From Clostridiales bacterium (GTDB taxonomy: Bacteria > Bacillota > Clostridia > Christensenellales > Borkfalkiaceae), in NCBI GenBank assembly GCA_022508245.1, contig JAFLVO010000001.1, positions 248,001 through 312,000 on the forward strand: a DNA stretch of 64,000 bases. The letters run 5' to 3'. The notes beneath the pieces were generated by a model that searched no databases, was not told the DNA's origin, and was given only the letters and a program-made list of their open reading frames with translations. Both the position numbers and the translations under genes were made by a program. Positions 18,140 through 63,219 of the stretch are shown here, in pieces; positions within the stretch are counted from its first letter, which is position 1; the number at the start of each line of letters is the position of its first letter.

Positions 18140-18322
18140 GCGGCGCGGCAAAAAATCACACTTTTTTGTTTCGCACTCAATTTGCGTATACCTACGCCTG
18201 AGTGGAAGTGAATGTCTGCAATTTTATTTTCGTTTGCTCCTAATTATTTCGGGCAGAGAAACTTAGTTTCTAAAAATCACGGAAAATATGCCTCGCAGAA
18301 TAGAGATGTACTTTCGTGAACT
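18140..18322 (+). repeat. Structured intergenic repeat B1 (candidate structured RNA)
   Basis: About 183 bp, roughly 70% alike by eye to the element at 60159-60339. It contains a series of hairpins also present in that copy: an A/T stem near 18150-18173, a GCGTA-tacc-TACGC hairpin closed by CACT/AGTG (near 18170-18200), a TGTCTGCAAT / ATTTCGGGCA pairing, an AGAAAC-tta-GTTTCT hairpin and a final long hairpin with loop GCAGAATA. Several stem positions differ from the other copy while pairing is kept. It lies between the divergent helicase and pgi genes. Confidence 0.75.
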
Positions 18323-52417: not shown

Positions 52418-52580
52418 CATAATACAAACTAAATAGGTCTGCGGTGTTCGTGGTATGGGAAATTCGTAATCCACAAAGTAAATAAGGGAGCGAAGCGTTC
52501 GCGGGAATAGGCAAGGTCTGGTTTTCGGAAAGTCCGACGTTCCGCCTCGGCGCACCCACCTGCGAGATGCGGGTTAATAC
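52418..52580 (+). ncRNA. ssrS: Probable 6S RNA
   Basis: 6S RNA mimics an open promoter and traps the sigma-70/A holoenzyme. The 5' part has CTGCGGTGTTCGTGGTATG and the 3' part GGCGCACCCACCTGCG, which resemble the conserved closing-stem ends of Bacillota 6S RNAs. Between them is a long, interrupted rod with an AAGTAAATAAGG bubble region. The promoter and the position after the nif3 cluster fit. Ends are approximate. The call rests on sequence recall and not on a covariance search. Confidence 0.7.
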
Positions 52581-52599
52581 TTTTTCATATCACGGCACA

Positions 52600-52682
52600 G
52601 GCGGATTTCAAAAGCGCAAAAAACTTGTGTTTTTGAAATCCGCATATATCGGCAATCCGCTCGCTCGGATTGTCGCTTTTTA
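52600..52682 (+). terminator. Two hairpins downstream of the probable 6S RNA
   Basis: First a long stem GCGGATTTCAAAA / TTTTGAAATCCGC (about 52601-52643), then GCAATCCG / CGGATTGT (about 52652-52672) followed by CGCTTTTTAT. The second has the form of an intrinsic terminator. Confidence 0.7.
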
Positions 52683-60027: not shown

Positions 60028-60056
60028 TTATCAATAATATCAACCGGTAAAATAAA

Positions 60057-60090
60057 CCCGCGCCAAGCTTTTGCTCGGCGCGGGGTGTTA
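60057..60090 (+). terminator. Terminator of gyrBA
   Basis: The stem CCCGCGCC-(12 nt)-GGCGCGGG, with a tail of GTGTTAT. Confidence 0.75.
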
Positions 60091-60100
60091 TATAAATAAC

Positions 60101-60141
60101 AAAAAATAGCCTGCGCAGAATAGCAGGCTGTTTTTGTGAAC
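60101..60141 (+). terminator. Solo copy of the B-family terminal hairpin
   Basis: The stem TAGCCTGC / GCAGGCTG with loop GCAGAATA and the tail TTTTTGTGAAC. Loop and tail equal those ending element B2 while the stem differs, so it looks like a free-standing last hairpin of that family, probably also acting as a terminator. Confidence 0.7.
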
Positions 60142-60158
60142 AATTACAAAACGTTTTA

Positions 60159-60339
60159 CGGCGCGGCCCAAAACCACGATTTTTGGTCGCGCACTCAATT
60201 TGCGTATGCCTACGCCTTAGTGGAAGTGAATTGCCAAGATTTTATCTTTGTTTGCCATTAAATATCTTGGCAAGAGAAACATAGTTTCTCAAATCACGAA
60301 AAATACACCTCGCAGAATAGAGGTGTATTTTTGTGAACA
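60159..60339 (+). repeat. Structured intergenic repeat B2 (candidate structured RNA)
   Basis: About 180 bp, the better-preserved partner of B1. Hairpins in order are GCGCG-gCC-cAAAA with TTTTTGG-tCGCGC (near 60160-60191), GCGTA-tgcc-TACGC closed by CACT/AGTG (near 60192-60224), TGCCAAGAT / ATCTTGGCA enclosing about 22 nt (near 60231-60271), GAGAAAC-ata-GTTTCTC and a 17-bp final hairpin TCAC.AAAAATACACCTC with loop GCAGAATA. The end touches the P-type ATPase stop codon. It has no open frame of note. Confidence 0.78.
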
Positions 60340-63219
60340 TTATGATCTTCTTTTCTTCTTTGTCGATGGCATCAGCACGTGCGACAGATCGATAAGTGCT
60401 CCCGATAGGGGGAAGGCTGCCTCTATTACTACGACGATAGCGAGTATCTGACCGTACTCCCAATTCAAGTCGCTCCAACCCGTGTATAGGAATAAGTTGG
60501 TAATCAAAGGTACCGTAAGCGCAACCATACATACTGAAAGCACACCTATGCACAGCACAATTCGGTATAGATTCAACGGCTGACAAATCCGGTATACCAT
60601 TACATAGCCTGAAAAAGTCATTGCAAGCATGCACATAGCTCTGTAATTACTGCTGTAAACGCCCGGCCATATCTGATTTAGCACGTACATTGTCATAACG
60701 CAAATAATCATTAGCAGCGCGCCCGAAATGGCACCGCCCATGACGTGCGAAATAAACTTACCTTGCACTCGCTCGTTGTTGGGCTGAAGTGAGAGGAAGA
60801 AGGAGGGAACGGCAATAATTGCAATTTCCAAAAGAAGCATATTCTGCGGCATGAACAGATAGGGCGTAGACATAAGCACGCACAGTGTTGCCAAAAATGC
60901 CGTAAACAGCGTCTTCATAAGATAGAGGGCGGAGGAGTTCTGAATATTATTTATAACACGTCTGCCCTCTGCAACTACCTTGGGCATTGAATTAAAGTTA
61001 TTGTCCATAAGCACGAGGTGGCTCACGTTTCTTGCTGCCTCGCTGCCCGAGGCAACGGATATTGCACAGTCCGCCTCTTTAAGCGCCAGAATATCGTTTA
61101 CGCCGTCGCCCGTCATTGCAACAGTATTGCCCTGCGCCTTGATAGCGCGTATCAGAACGGCTTTCTGCTCGGGCGAAACTCTGCCGAACACGGTGTATTT
61201 ATTTGCAACGTTTTCAACTTCGGTATCGTTGAGTCCGTCAAGTGATATAAACTTCTCCGCGCCCGCAACGCCCGCACGCTTTGCAACTTCGGATACGGTA
61301 ATGGGGTTGTCGCCCGAAATAACCTTTACGTTTACGTCGTTTTCTTTGAACCACCTGATTGTTTCGGTAGCGTCGTCGCGCACGTTGTCGGCAATTGAAA
61401 TAATTGCAATGGGCTTCATAATAGTGGGAAGCTTGTCGCCAACGATTGCAGAGGGAGAGTGCGCAAGCACTATGACGCGAAGTCCCATATTTGCGTACTG
61501 CTTTACAATTCTTTCAACCTTGGCGGGGCAGGGTTTTAAAACAAACTCAGGTGCGCCCATAGCAAAGGTTCCCACGTCGTGGAAGGTAACTGCGGAGAGC
61601 TTCCTCTTTGAAGAGAATGGTATTTTTGCAACTCCCGTAAGCGCGTTACTGAACCCGAAATGATTAAATAGTGCAATCGAGGTCTGATTGTTTGAATCAA
61701 GCTCTCTGAGCATGCTTCCCATAATATCGTTTACCGAATAATCGCCCACGGTGTTAAGAATAACGGTATCGTTTACCTTCATTCTGCCGTCCGTGATAGT
61801 TCCCGTTTTATCAAGGCACAAAACGTTAACTCTGGCAAGCATCTCGAGGGAATACATATCCTTTACCTGCGTATTGCTCTTTGCAAGGCGCAAAATACCG
61901 AGGGCAAGCGCAACGCTCGTAAGTAAGAGCATACCCGAGGGAATCATACCTATAATAACCGTACATGTACGCCGTATAGCGTAGACGACTTCCTTTTTGA
62001 ACAGAGAGTTAGCCGTGACGTCCTCGAATATCTTTTGTCCGTATTCGGGATGATGCAGGGTAGTAAGGAATGTGAATATCGCAAGAGGAATGATAATAAG
62101 TGAAACGGCCTTAATTATGAGCTTTGTGTAGTTCATAAGCTCGGAATTGGGCCTTTTATATTTCTTTGCTTTGGAAGTCAGCTTTTCAAGATAGGTCTCT
62201 CTTCCCACCTTTTCGACTCTGAATTTGCCGTTACCGCTTGCAATAAAGCTACCTGCATACAGCATATCGCCGACCGATTTCTTAATTGCAATCGATTCAC
62301 CCGTCAAAAGGCTCTCGTTCACTTCAACGCTTCCGTCTGCAAGTATGCAGTCCGCGGGAACCTGATTACCGAGCTCAAGAATTAAAACGTCATCCAAAAC
62401 AACGTCTTTAACGTCAATTTCAACCGTTTCGCCGTCGCGTATGACCTTTATGGTATTAGAGGCCAGCAGAGCAAGCCGGTCTATAGAATGCTTTGCGCGG
62501 ATTTCCTGAAAAATACCTATACCTATGTTTACAGTCGTAATAACTATGACAAGGTAGTTTGAAAAACCGGGCGTACTCGCAAGCAGAAGGGCGATAAACG
62601 CAATAAGGCACAGCAAATTGAAGAAGGTGCAAACGTTTCCTATGATTATGCTCGTATAGGAGCGGGTATTGGAATTGTTTGTGTCGTTAAAGAGGAACTG
62701 TCTGAACCTCATTTGGACCTGTTTCTGCGTAAGACCCTTATTTAGCTTGGGCGAAAAACGTTCGACCTTAGAATTGATGACCTTTTTGGGGTGACGCTTG
62801 AAGTACTTTTTAATCTTTTCCTTGTCGAAAGGTTCTCCATCGCCGTCGGCTTCGGGTTCGTCATTATGCTCCTCAGTAGGGAAAAGTGCCATCTGAACGC
62901 CGTCCGTAAAGTCTTCTTTTTCGGGCTTGTACTCGCTCTCCTCGTCTGGAACTTCCTCTGTTAGGGGATTTTCCTCATCGGAAGCTTGTTCTTTTACGGT
63001 TTTTTTAGCCTTAACCACTTTGACGGGCTTTTCAACATTTTCCGTGTCGGGGAATTCCTCTTTTGTTTCGGACTTCTCCTTTGCGGGGGCGGGCGTGACT
63101 TTTCTTGCAGTTCTCTTGGGCTTTTCGGCAGCTTCTACAGTGTCGTCAACCTTTTCGGGCTGCGCGTCCGAGCCGTCCTTTTTAGGGTCGTTGTTTTGGG
63201 GTTTTAATAATATTTTCAT
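60340..63219 (-). CDS. P-type cation ATPase, CtpE-like, with long N-terminal extension
   Basis: About 960 residues. A low-complexity N terminus of about 155 residues, rich in Lys, Glu and Pro, precedes a complete P-type ATPase: actuator TGES (in LLTGESIAIKK, about 313-323), phosphorylation site DKTGTITDG (about 470-478) and hinge MTGDGVNDILALKEADC (about 698-714). About ten membrane segments are present. Helix M4 reads GMIPSGMLLLTSVAL; in calcium pumps and many homologues this place is P-E-G, so the ion-binding glutamate is a serine. Calcium transport, as reported for mycobacterial CtpE, is therefore uncertain. The ATG at 63219 is favoured; a GTG two codons earlier would sit on the AGGTGG box. 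Confidence 0.88.
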   Translation of the reverse strand: MKILLKPQNNDPKKDGSDAQPEKVDDTVEAAEKPKRTARKVTPAPAKEKSETKEEFPDTENVEKPVKVVKAKKTVKEQASDEENPLTEEVPDEESEYKPEKEDFTDGVQMALFPTEEHNDEPEADGDGEPFDKEKIKKYFKRHPKKVINSKVERFSPKLNKGLTQKQVQMRFRQFLFNDTNNSNTRSYTSIIIGNVCTFFNLLCLIAFIALLLASTPGFSNYLVIVITTVNIGIGIFQEIRAKHSIDRLALLASNTIKVIRDGETVEIDVKDVVLDDVLILELGNQVPADCILADGSVEVNESLLTGESIAIKKSVGDMLYAGSFIASGNGKFRVEKVGRETYLEKLTSKAKKYKRPNSELMNYTKLIIKAVSLIIIPLAIFTFLTTLHHPEYGQKIFEDVTANSLFKKEVVYAIRRTCTVIIGMIPSGMLLLTSVALALGILRLAKSNTQVKDMYSLEMLARVNVLCLDKTGTITDGRMKVNDTVILNTVGDYSVNDIMGSMLRELDSNNQTSIALFNHFGFSNALTGVAKIPFSSKRKLSAVTFHDVGTFAMGAPEFVLKPCPAKVERIVKQYANMGLRVIVLAHSPSAIVGDKLPTIMKPIAIISIADNVRDDATETIRWFKENDVNVKVISGDNPITVSEVAKRAGVAGAEKFISLDGLNDTEVENVANKYTVFGRVSPEQKAVLIRAIKAQGNTVAMTGDGVNDILALKEADCAISVASGSEAARNVSHLVLMDNNFNSMPKVVAEGRRVINNIQNSSALYLMKTLFTAFLATLCVLMSTPYLFMPQNMLLLEIAIIAVPSFFLSLQPNNERVQGKFISHVMGGAISGALLMIICVMTMYVLNQIWPGVYSSNYRAMCMLAMTFSGYVMVYRICQPLNLYRIVLCIGVLSVCMVALTVPLITNLFLYTGWSDLNWEYGQILAIVVVIEAAFPLSGALIDLSHVLMPSTKKKRRS

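Follow-up and report, generated by a model that had tools for sequence, protein, structure and literature searches.

The question raised by this locus is what B2 is, an intergenic element that folds into hairpins and has a second copy, B1, in the same window (the whole stretch of DNA analysed, 64,000 nucleotides). The earlier note had described a two-copy structured element with compensatory changes, lying beside unrelated genes and selected for its structure as a non-coding RNA or a hairpin DNA substrate. Both elements, which it had delimited correctly on the + strand (Table 1), align over 181 columns with 81% identity, and the sequence blocks that it named as well as five hairpins are common to the two in the same order. 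The stem letters that it quoted are correct (TGCCAAGAT/ATCTTGGCA in B2, TGTCTGCAAT/ATTTCGGGCA in B1) and so are the neighbours: gyrase A and an E1-E2 ATPase flank B2, a UvrD/PIF1-type helicase and PGI flank B1. Our main reading, to which we give a probability of roughly 0.6, is that the two elements belong to a BOX/REP-like interspersed repeat, structured, non-coding and non-autonomous, of one gut-Clostridia family. The repeat family is real and new; its kind, the non-coding structured interspersed repeat, is already known.

The element is about 180 nt long and comprises five hairpins, P1 to P5, in a fixed order: a short A/T leader, P1, the linker CACNCAATTTGCG, P2 to P4 and a terminator-like 3' hairpin, H, which ends in GTGAAC. 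Scanning the 64-kb window with a covariance model built from aligned copies (R1, described below) returned, besides B1 and B2, a single additional 3' hairpin upstream of B2, which we read as the remnant of an H-body-H array. In a terminator scan this upstream H was terminator-like on the - strand; the H of B2 itself was not scored so. B1 lies between divergent helicase and pgi genes, and only a deletion remnant is present there in the genome of a sister species (G035).

Table 1. Coordinates of the two element copies and of associated features in the window.
Feature	Position	Strand	Support
B2, full element copy	60159..60339	+	R1 match 60158-60337, 200 bits
B1, full element copy	18140..18322	+	R1 match 18140-18320, 176 bits
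P1 hairpin of B2, loop ACCACGA, then conserved linker CACTCAATTTGCG	60161..60192	+	alignments A1 and A4; covariation
P2, small hairpin of B2	60203..60214	+	A1 columns 53/60 are the top-scoring covarying pair
P3 of B2, 10 bp stem, conserved large loop (..TGTTTGCC..)	60231..60273	+	
P4 hairpin of B2, GAGAAAC/GTTTCTC	60274..60290	+	alignments; covariation; letters checked
P5 (H) of B2, A-tract/stem/loop CGCAGAATAG/stem/T-tract, 3' end of the element	60294..60336	+	
Stop codon of the convergent ATPase gene, directly after B2	60340-60342		
Extra H hairpin upstream of B2	60094..60142	+	blastn and R1

The description as two copies proved too narrow. In the source genome (G000, 1.66 Mb), blastn finds 48 matching pieces and R1 at least 44 copies. 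The linker pattern CACNCAATTTGCG occurs 41 times in G000 and 20 times in G035, with no occurrence of the backward control in either (both genomes are drafts, 97.6% and 93% complete). Searching a covariance model over genomes, as the earlier note had proposed, yielded further copies in 54 of the genus's 61 genomes, the number per genome ranging from 1 to at least 44, and none in the remaining 7. Beyond the genus the element thins out: 12 of 200 genomes sampled from the order matched (5 of the genus itself, 6 of g27, a second genus of the same family that carries the element weakly, and 1 of another family), as did 5 of 391 sampled from the class, including a weak match from outside the family. 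Like all R1 scans of more than 40 genomes, these apply stricter filters, by which weak matches are lost. Among the genomes of other genera of the family listed in the order scan, 6 of 8 matched and 2 were without a match. The contigs found by the pattern scan are titled as uncultured Clostridia, including Candidatus Coproplasma stercoravium. Together with the covariation given below and the diversity of neighbouring genes, these copies bear out the idea of a structurally conserved family that is dispersed next to unrelated genes.

That no described family was recognisable in the sequence also stood up to searching. An Rfam scan of the whole window matched only a 6S RNA (RF00013, 53.5 bits, at 52433-52611), and a scan of 60050-60400 at E up to 10 gave 26 matches, all under their gathering scores; comparison with Rfam, another check that had been proposed, thus rejects identity with a known RNA family at the gathering threshold. 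The literature searched (open-licence PubMed Central text) held no report of the repeat family. Carriage by phages or plasmids was likewise rejected for the records searched: phage and plasmid records gave no element match and viral contigs no pattern match. No autonomous long form with an open reading frame between the element ends was seen, most of the 41 linker sites of G000 being known copies by eye, in a check of all but a few linker sites (e.g. C6:298 in G000 and C40:48234 in G035). A solo H suggested by blastn 3'-hairpin matches in another genome (G024) was dropped, as the model gives 25 matches there and C24:62272 falls within a full-length one.

The fold is supported by covariation in two alignments. 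A1, on which R1 is based, holds 41 copies, 32 of G000 and 9 from eight other genomes; 53 entries from 10 genomes were reduced to 42 by removing 11 with inserts, truncations or missing modules, and L024 was then removed. Two-sided change is seen in 38 of its 48 pairs, with a covariation score of 0.501 against 0.153 in shuffles, none of 500 being as high. Since A1 had itself suggested the structure, the copies of A4 were aligned and folded afresh with RNAalifold. A4 consists of 50 copies, all outside G000 and G035, chosen from a set of 71 (set 2) that had been hand-picked from 98 matches by leaving out weak, cut-off and duplicate ones; its row L083 is the same place as A1 row L023, and several of its source genomes also gave A1 rows. 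The de novo fold consists of the same five hairpins, with two-sided change in 40 of 42 pairs (for P3, 10 of 10 pairs, after 9 of 10 in A1) and 96.6% of cells paired, a percentage that leans towards structure because the copies were located by R1, which scores pairing. The covariation score is 0.552, compared with 0.176 when shuffled and 0.08-0.15 when partners are slid by 1-3 columns. All 500 shuffles, which do not preserve the relatedness of the copies, stayed below what was observed, in the score as in each of five measures. In the 21 A4 copies that lie on pattern-found contigs, 97.5% of cells are paired with 144 two-sided, against shuffle means of 80.0% and 38 (maxima of 500: 82.5% and 56). 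In the better aligned stems, G-T mismatches outnumber A-C ones by 33:9 in A1 and 48:9 in A4, an excess that points to folding of the element's + strand. G-U makes up 2.1% and 2.4% of pairs in A1 and A4, which is low for an RNA family. Neither alignment contains a helix joining the element ends, and terminal inverted repeats are absent.

Copies are also modular. Direct tandem arrays of the type H-body-H-body-H occur in several genomes (e.g. L067, L063, G253); in the arrays examined the units are in direct orientation, and their general form is H-(body-H)n. In 24 of 140 copies (9/44 in G000, 9/25 in G035, 6/71 elsewhere), an upstream H ends 13-17 nt short of the element. The g27 copies that were read keep P1 and the linker, and mostly H, with a different middle, and one copy (L119) is a mini-form of P1 and H only. 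Between P2 and P3, eight sampled copies of G000 (L037, L042, which overlaps L009, L014, L043, L194, L195) and G035 (L185, L188) carry a 63-nt hairpin module (TTTGCACTCGAATATTAG..GGTGTGCAAAGC), and seven of the eight are 236-241 nt long. The view of this insert as a separate MITE in P2 was dropped, since it recurs in these eight copies; it may be a subfamily module. Pieces related to it match L030:6662, L043:10451, L063 and L052.

Such modularity would suit a substrate of a still active recombinase, site-specific or hairpin-recognising (integron attC-like, HUH-like or other), for which, by analogy, P1 and H, folded on single-stranded DNA, would be the hairpins recognised on the left and on the right, with a passenger between them. 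The arrays, the mini-form and the exchanged middle of the second genus speak for this, as do the strand-specific tolerance of mismatches, the low G-U share and one site at which the element has opposite orientations in G000 and G035 (L040/L176). We nevertheless hold it to be unlikely. The Y1 (HUH) transposase domain (PF01797) has no match in G000 or G035, both rich in copies, yet it is present in 18 of the 61 genus genomes, where no relation to copy number is apparent by eye, and the TnpB zinc ribbon (PF07282) is found in 0 of 9 element-rich genomes. Reverse transcriptase (PF00078), without a match in G000 and G035, occurs in 3 of 9 element-rich genomes. These domain searches of element-rich hosts leave an origin linked to RAYT/REP, TnpB or reverse transcriptase unsupported. 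Replication-strand bias, a mark of derivatives of IS200/IS605-type single-strand transposons, is likewise missing from the copies compared: mean GC skew of the flanks (1.5-20 kb only) is near 0 in element orientation, and positive in 23 of 44 copies of G000, 15 of 25 of G035 and 35 of 71 others. No pair of copies with at least 0.90 identity occurs within G000 or within G035 among the 69 compared (44 and 25, sampled from at least 44 and at least 40), and there is hence no sign of a recent transposition burst. Among the sites compared between the two genomes, none is a clean empty site with target duplication; the places tested as empty sites in G035 were rejected as deletion remnants or ambiguous, and the borders of a candidate gain (L184_9246) and of an ambiguous case (L014) are unclear. 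Of the earlier note's proposals, the hairpin DNA substrate and the dispersed, mobile family suit the data better than does a discrete RNA gene, although no mobiliser turned up among the enzyme classes searched.

We analysed the position of the element relative to genes in the 126 copies flanked by 400 nt or more on either side, out of 140 (69 from G000 and G035, 71 of set 2), with ORFs called by a simple script. The 3' end abuts a stop codon in 59 copies and a Shine-Dalgarno sequence (SD) or start in 16, counted among copies not also abutting a stop codon, giving 75 in all, compared with 11 and 6, or 17, for the 5' end; the Fisher p of about 2e-14 for this difference is too small because G000/G035 orthologues are counted twice, and set 2 includes at least one probable orthologous pair (L099/L100). 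The remaining 51 3' ends meet neither test. Among convergent genes on the 3' side, 32 of 37 in G000 and G035 and 24 of 37 elsewhere have their stop codon between -16 and +20 nt from the element end, while the same test at the 5' end gives 3 of 34 and 3 of 35. Genes neighbouring copies are diverse, and a scan of ten proteins downstream of start-abutting copies (SecE, CBAH, RimP, Lon, a 4Fe-4S single-cluster protein, DnaJ, a class-V aminotransferase, GMP synthase, a class-I tRNA synthetase and a LuxR-type regulator) showed no common function. We also compared 25 loci for each of the two sites, not all of which as fetched span the intergenic region (L154 ends inside the gene). Both G000 and G035 have a full B2; B1, full in G000, is reduced to a remnant in G035. 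The other 23 loci have no model match (E up to 0.01) at either site, which points to insertion in this lineage. In many element-free species the B2 site has its own terminator-like hairpin, about 15-45 nt past the stop by eye.

These positions might reflect a targeting rule tied to translation boundaries, whereby the element would enter with its 3' hairpin against the edge of a translated region, by a process without a dedicated transposase of the tested classes. No DNA sequence was seen to be common to stop and SD sites, so the cue would be the state of the mRNA, such as naked RNA or an R-loop beside ribosome-covered RNA, or else a ratchet of nibbling from the 3' side; the carrier might be a recombination or replication process. 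We consider such a rule rather doubtful.

How individual copies change was examined between G000 and G035, the flanks of which are mostly 85-96% identical. One orthologous pair (L193/L179) is identical across 181 nt. Three in-place diverged orthologous copies show 12 changed pairs and 0 kept two-sided changes: a single base, changed on one side of its pair, separates the two copies in L032/L177 and likewise in L036/L185, and in L045/L192, where 24 of 178 positions differ, 8 pairs have changed on one side and 2 on both sides, neither of these 2 being kept, and P3 is broken. The compensatory changes of the earlier note are therefore not borne out as evidence that a non-coding RNA is under selection site by site. 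At other sites whole stems differ and remain paired. Kept two-sided changes number 13 for B2, 15 for L007/L182, 14 for L048/L183 and 11 for L046/L178, with only 2, 2, 4 and 0 one-sided changes, respectively; in L017/L187, where 5 two-sided changes are kept and 3 changes are one-sided, the alignment locates the swap in H. Sharp breakpoints lie within the element in L046/L178 and in L037/L191, the latter with 2 kept two-sided and 9 one-sided changes and a mostly unpaired P3 in G035. The G035 remnants at the B1 site and at C13:6771 consist of P1 or its linker joined to the H loop, and a third (C1:88834) retains little beyond the 3' half of H. Stems thus change as blocks, presumably because copies exchange them, and undisturbed copies decay. 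Since changes in place are uncompensated and whole stems are swapped elsewhere, the structure is a property of the spreading, recombining family and not of each copy. Among the 69 sampled of at least 84 copies, no close donor of an exchanged block was found. Two further differences between the genomes were noticed: G035 has some 277 nt (L178:382-658) with no counterpart at the orthologous G000 site, and a separate repeat of about 57 nt in G000 (L205:2946-3002; C1, about 89.9 kb) is absent at its G035 counterpart and matches four other G035 places.

Alternatively, the stems could be renewed by mutation and not by selection, if template switching at the replication fork copied one arm onto the other in otherwise neutral repeats. 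Such a mechanism has been described, as far as the excerpted text of PMC8794818 goes, and it would account for stem changes that come in blocks with few G-U intermediates. However, mismatches stand unrepaired in place (L045/L192, L036/L185, L017/L187), loops and linkers are conserved too, and the exchanged blocks of B2 and L046/L178 span several stems and loops, which correction of a single hairpin leaves unexplained. The multi-stem blocks and the unrepaired mismatches argue for exchange between copies over template switching, which we judge quite improbable.

The same comparison bears on a family of trans-acting small RNAs, in which each copy would be an sRNA of about 180 nt with an intrinsic terminator formed by H. 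In its favour, the fold of the + strand has a hairpin at the 3' end that resembles a terminator, and the excess of G-T over A-C mismatches on that strand fits the folding of one strand as RNA. This explanation is very unlikely, though, in view of decay in place without compensation, including the broken P3 of L045/L192, of listed flanks in which no shared promoter is apparent by eye, and of the missing Rfam match. Slightly less probable still is a cis-regulatory leader, riboswitch- or attenuator-like, in which P1-P4 would sense and H would terminate before the downstream SD: it would suit the 16 copies that abut an SD or start and the promoter-like TATAAT seen by eye a few tens of nt upstream of some copies, but 59 of the 126 copies have a convergent stop codon at their 3' end, and the unrelatedness of the ten scanned downstream proteins led us to reject a riboswitch-like regulon.

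Under the interspersed-repeat reading, the course of events could be as follows. The element would have spread in the past to gene edges, where H is now observed to face the coding region, and the enzyme that first moved it may be lost. Copies of the two species now differ by swapped blocks, probably taken over from other copies, by deletions that run into the loop of H, and by gradual decay where they stand. The paired stems would be kept at the level of the family, as only foldable copies would spread or convert others. An H that abuts a stop codon probably serves as terminator and 3' barrier of that gene, and one that abuts an SD would be part of a leader or intercistronic mRNA. Counting against this reading are the missing clean empty site, the lack of terminal inverted repeats, the absence of near-identical pairs among the sampled copies and of a linked transposase, and the G-T excess, which would suit RNA folding of one strand as well.

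The element has what defines the small structured interspersed repeats (BOX/REP-like): its copies are many, dispersed, non-coding, structured and intergenic. MITEs are similarly non-coding, dispersed and strongly base-paired, whereas in the element terminal inverted repeats are absent and no target-site duplication could be read at the sites compared. TnpB/IscB-linked RNAs (omega RNA, HEARO) are structured RNA-like elements dispersed without an ORF; the element differs in that the Rfam results include no such family and the element-rich genomes examined no TnpB zinc ribbon. REP/BIME sequences are short single palindromes, often in inverted pairs, whereas the element is much larger, with five hairpins and direct tandem units, and has no Y1/RAYT match in G000 or G035. 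The two are alike as intergenic hairpins, part of them close to stop codons: according to excerpts of PMC12306157, 260 of 496 E. coli REPs in an earlier study cited there, and 446 of 4,072 in that paper's own count, lie at most 15 nt from a stop, where they can stall ribosomes. The nearest kind is BOX/SPRITE of Streptococcus pneumoniae, which in the excerpted parts of PMC3049150 is, like the element, small, structured, modular and expandable, of low present mobility and found at gene 3' ends. SPRITE is described there as terminator-like and enriched near the 3' ends of convergent genes, and BOX as encoding the stop codon in 36 of 58 overlapping CDSs. In BOX and RUP the terminal inverted repeats pair together (same excerpts), unlike in the element, which has no end-joining helix. 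It differs from BOX also in its host group and in a 3'-end polarity at both stop codons and SDs.

For RNA discovery the family is a warning, as covariation that would suffice to declare a new structured RNA can come from dispersed, mutually exchanging repeats, the individual copies of which are not seen to be maintained by compensatory change pair by pair. The polarity of the 3' end at stop and start signals offers a testable handle on the site choice or survival of such repeats, and bears on termination and translation effects in uncultured gut Clostridia.

A palindromic-looking insert begins inside the H stem at the same place in four copies (L031, L033, L040, L014), two of which are at contig ends. 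It is 285 nt long in L031, the only full reading (G000:C6:8300-16500, from about 3982 downwards), and sits at one spot in H as if targeting that hairpin.
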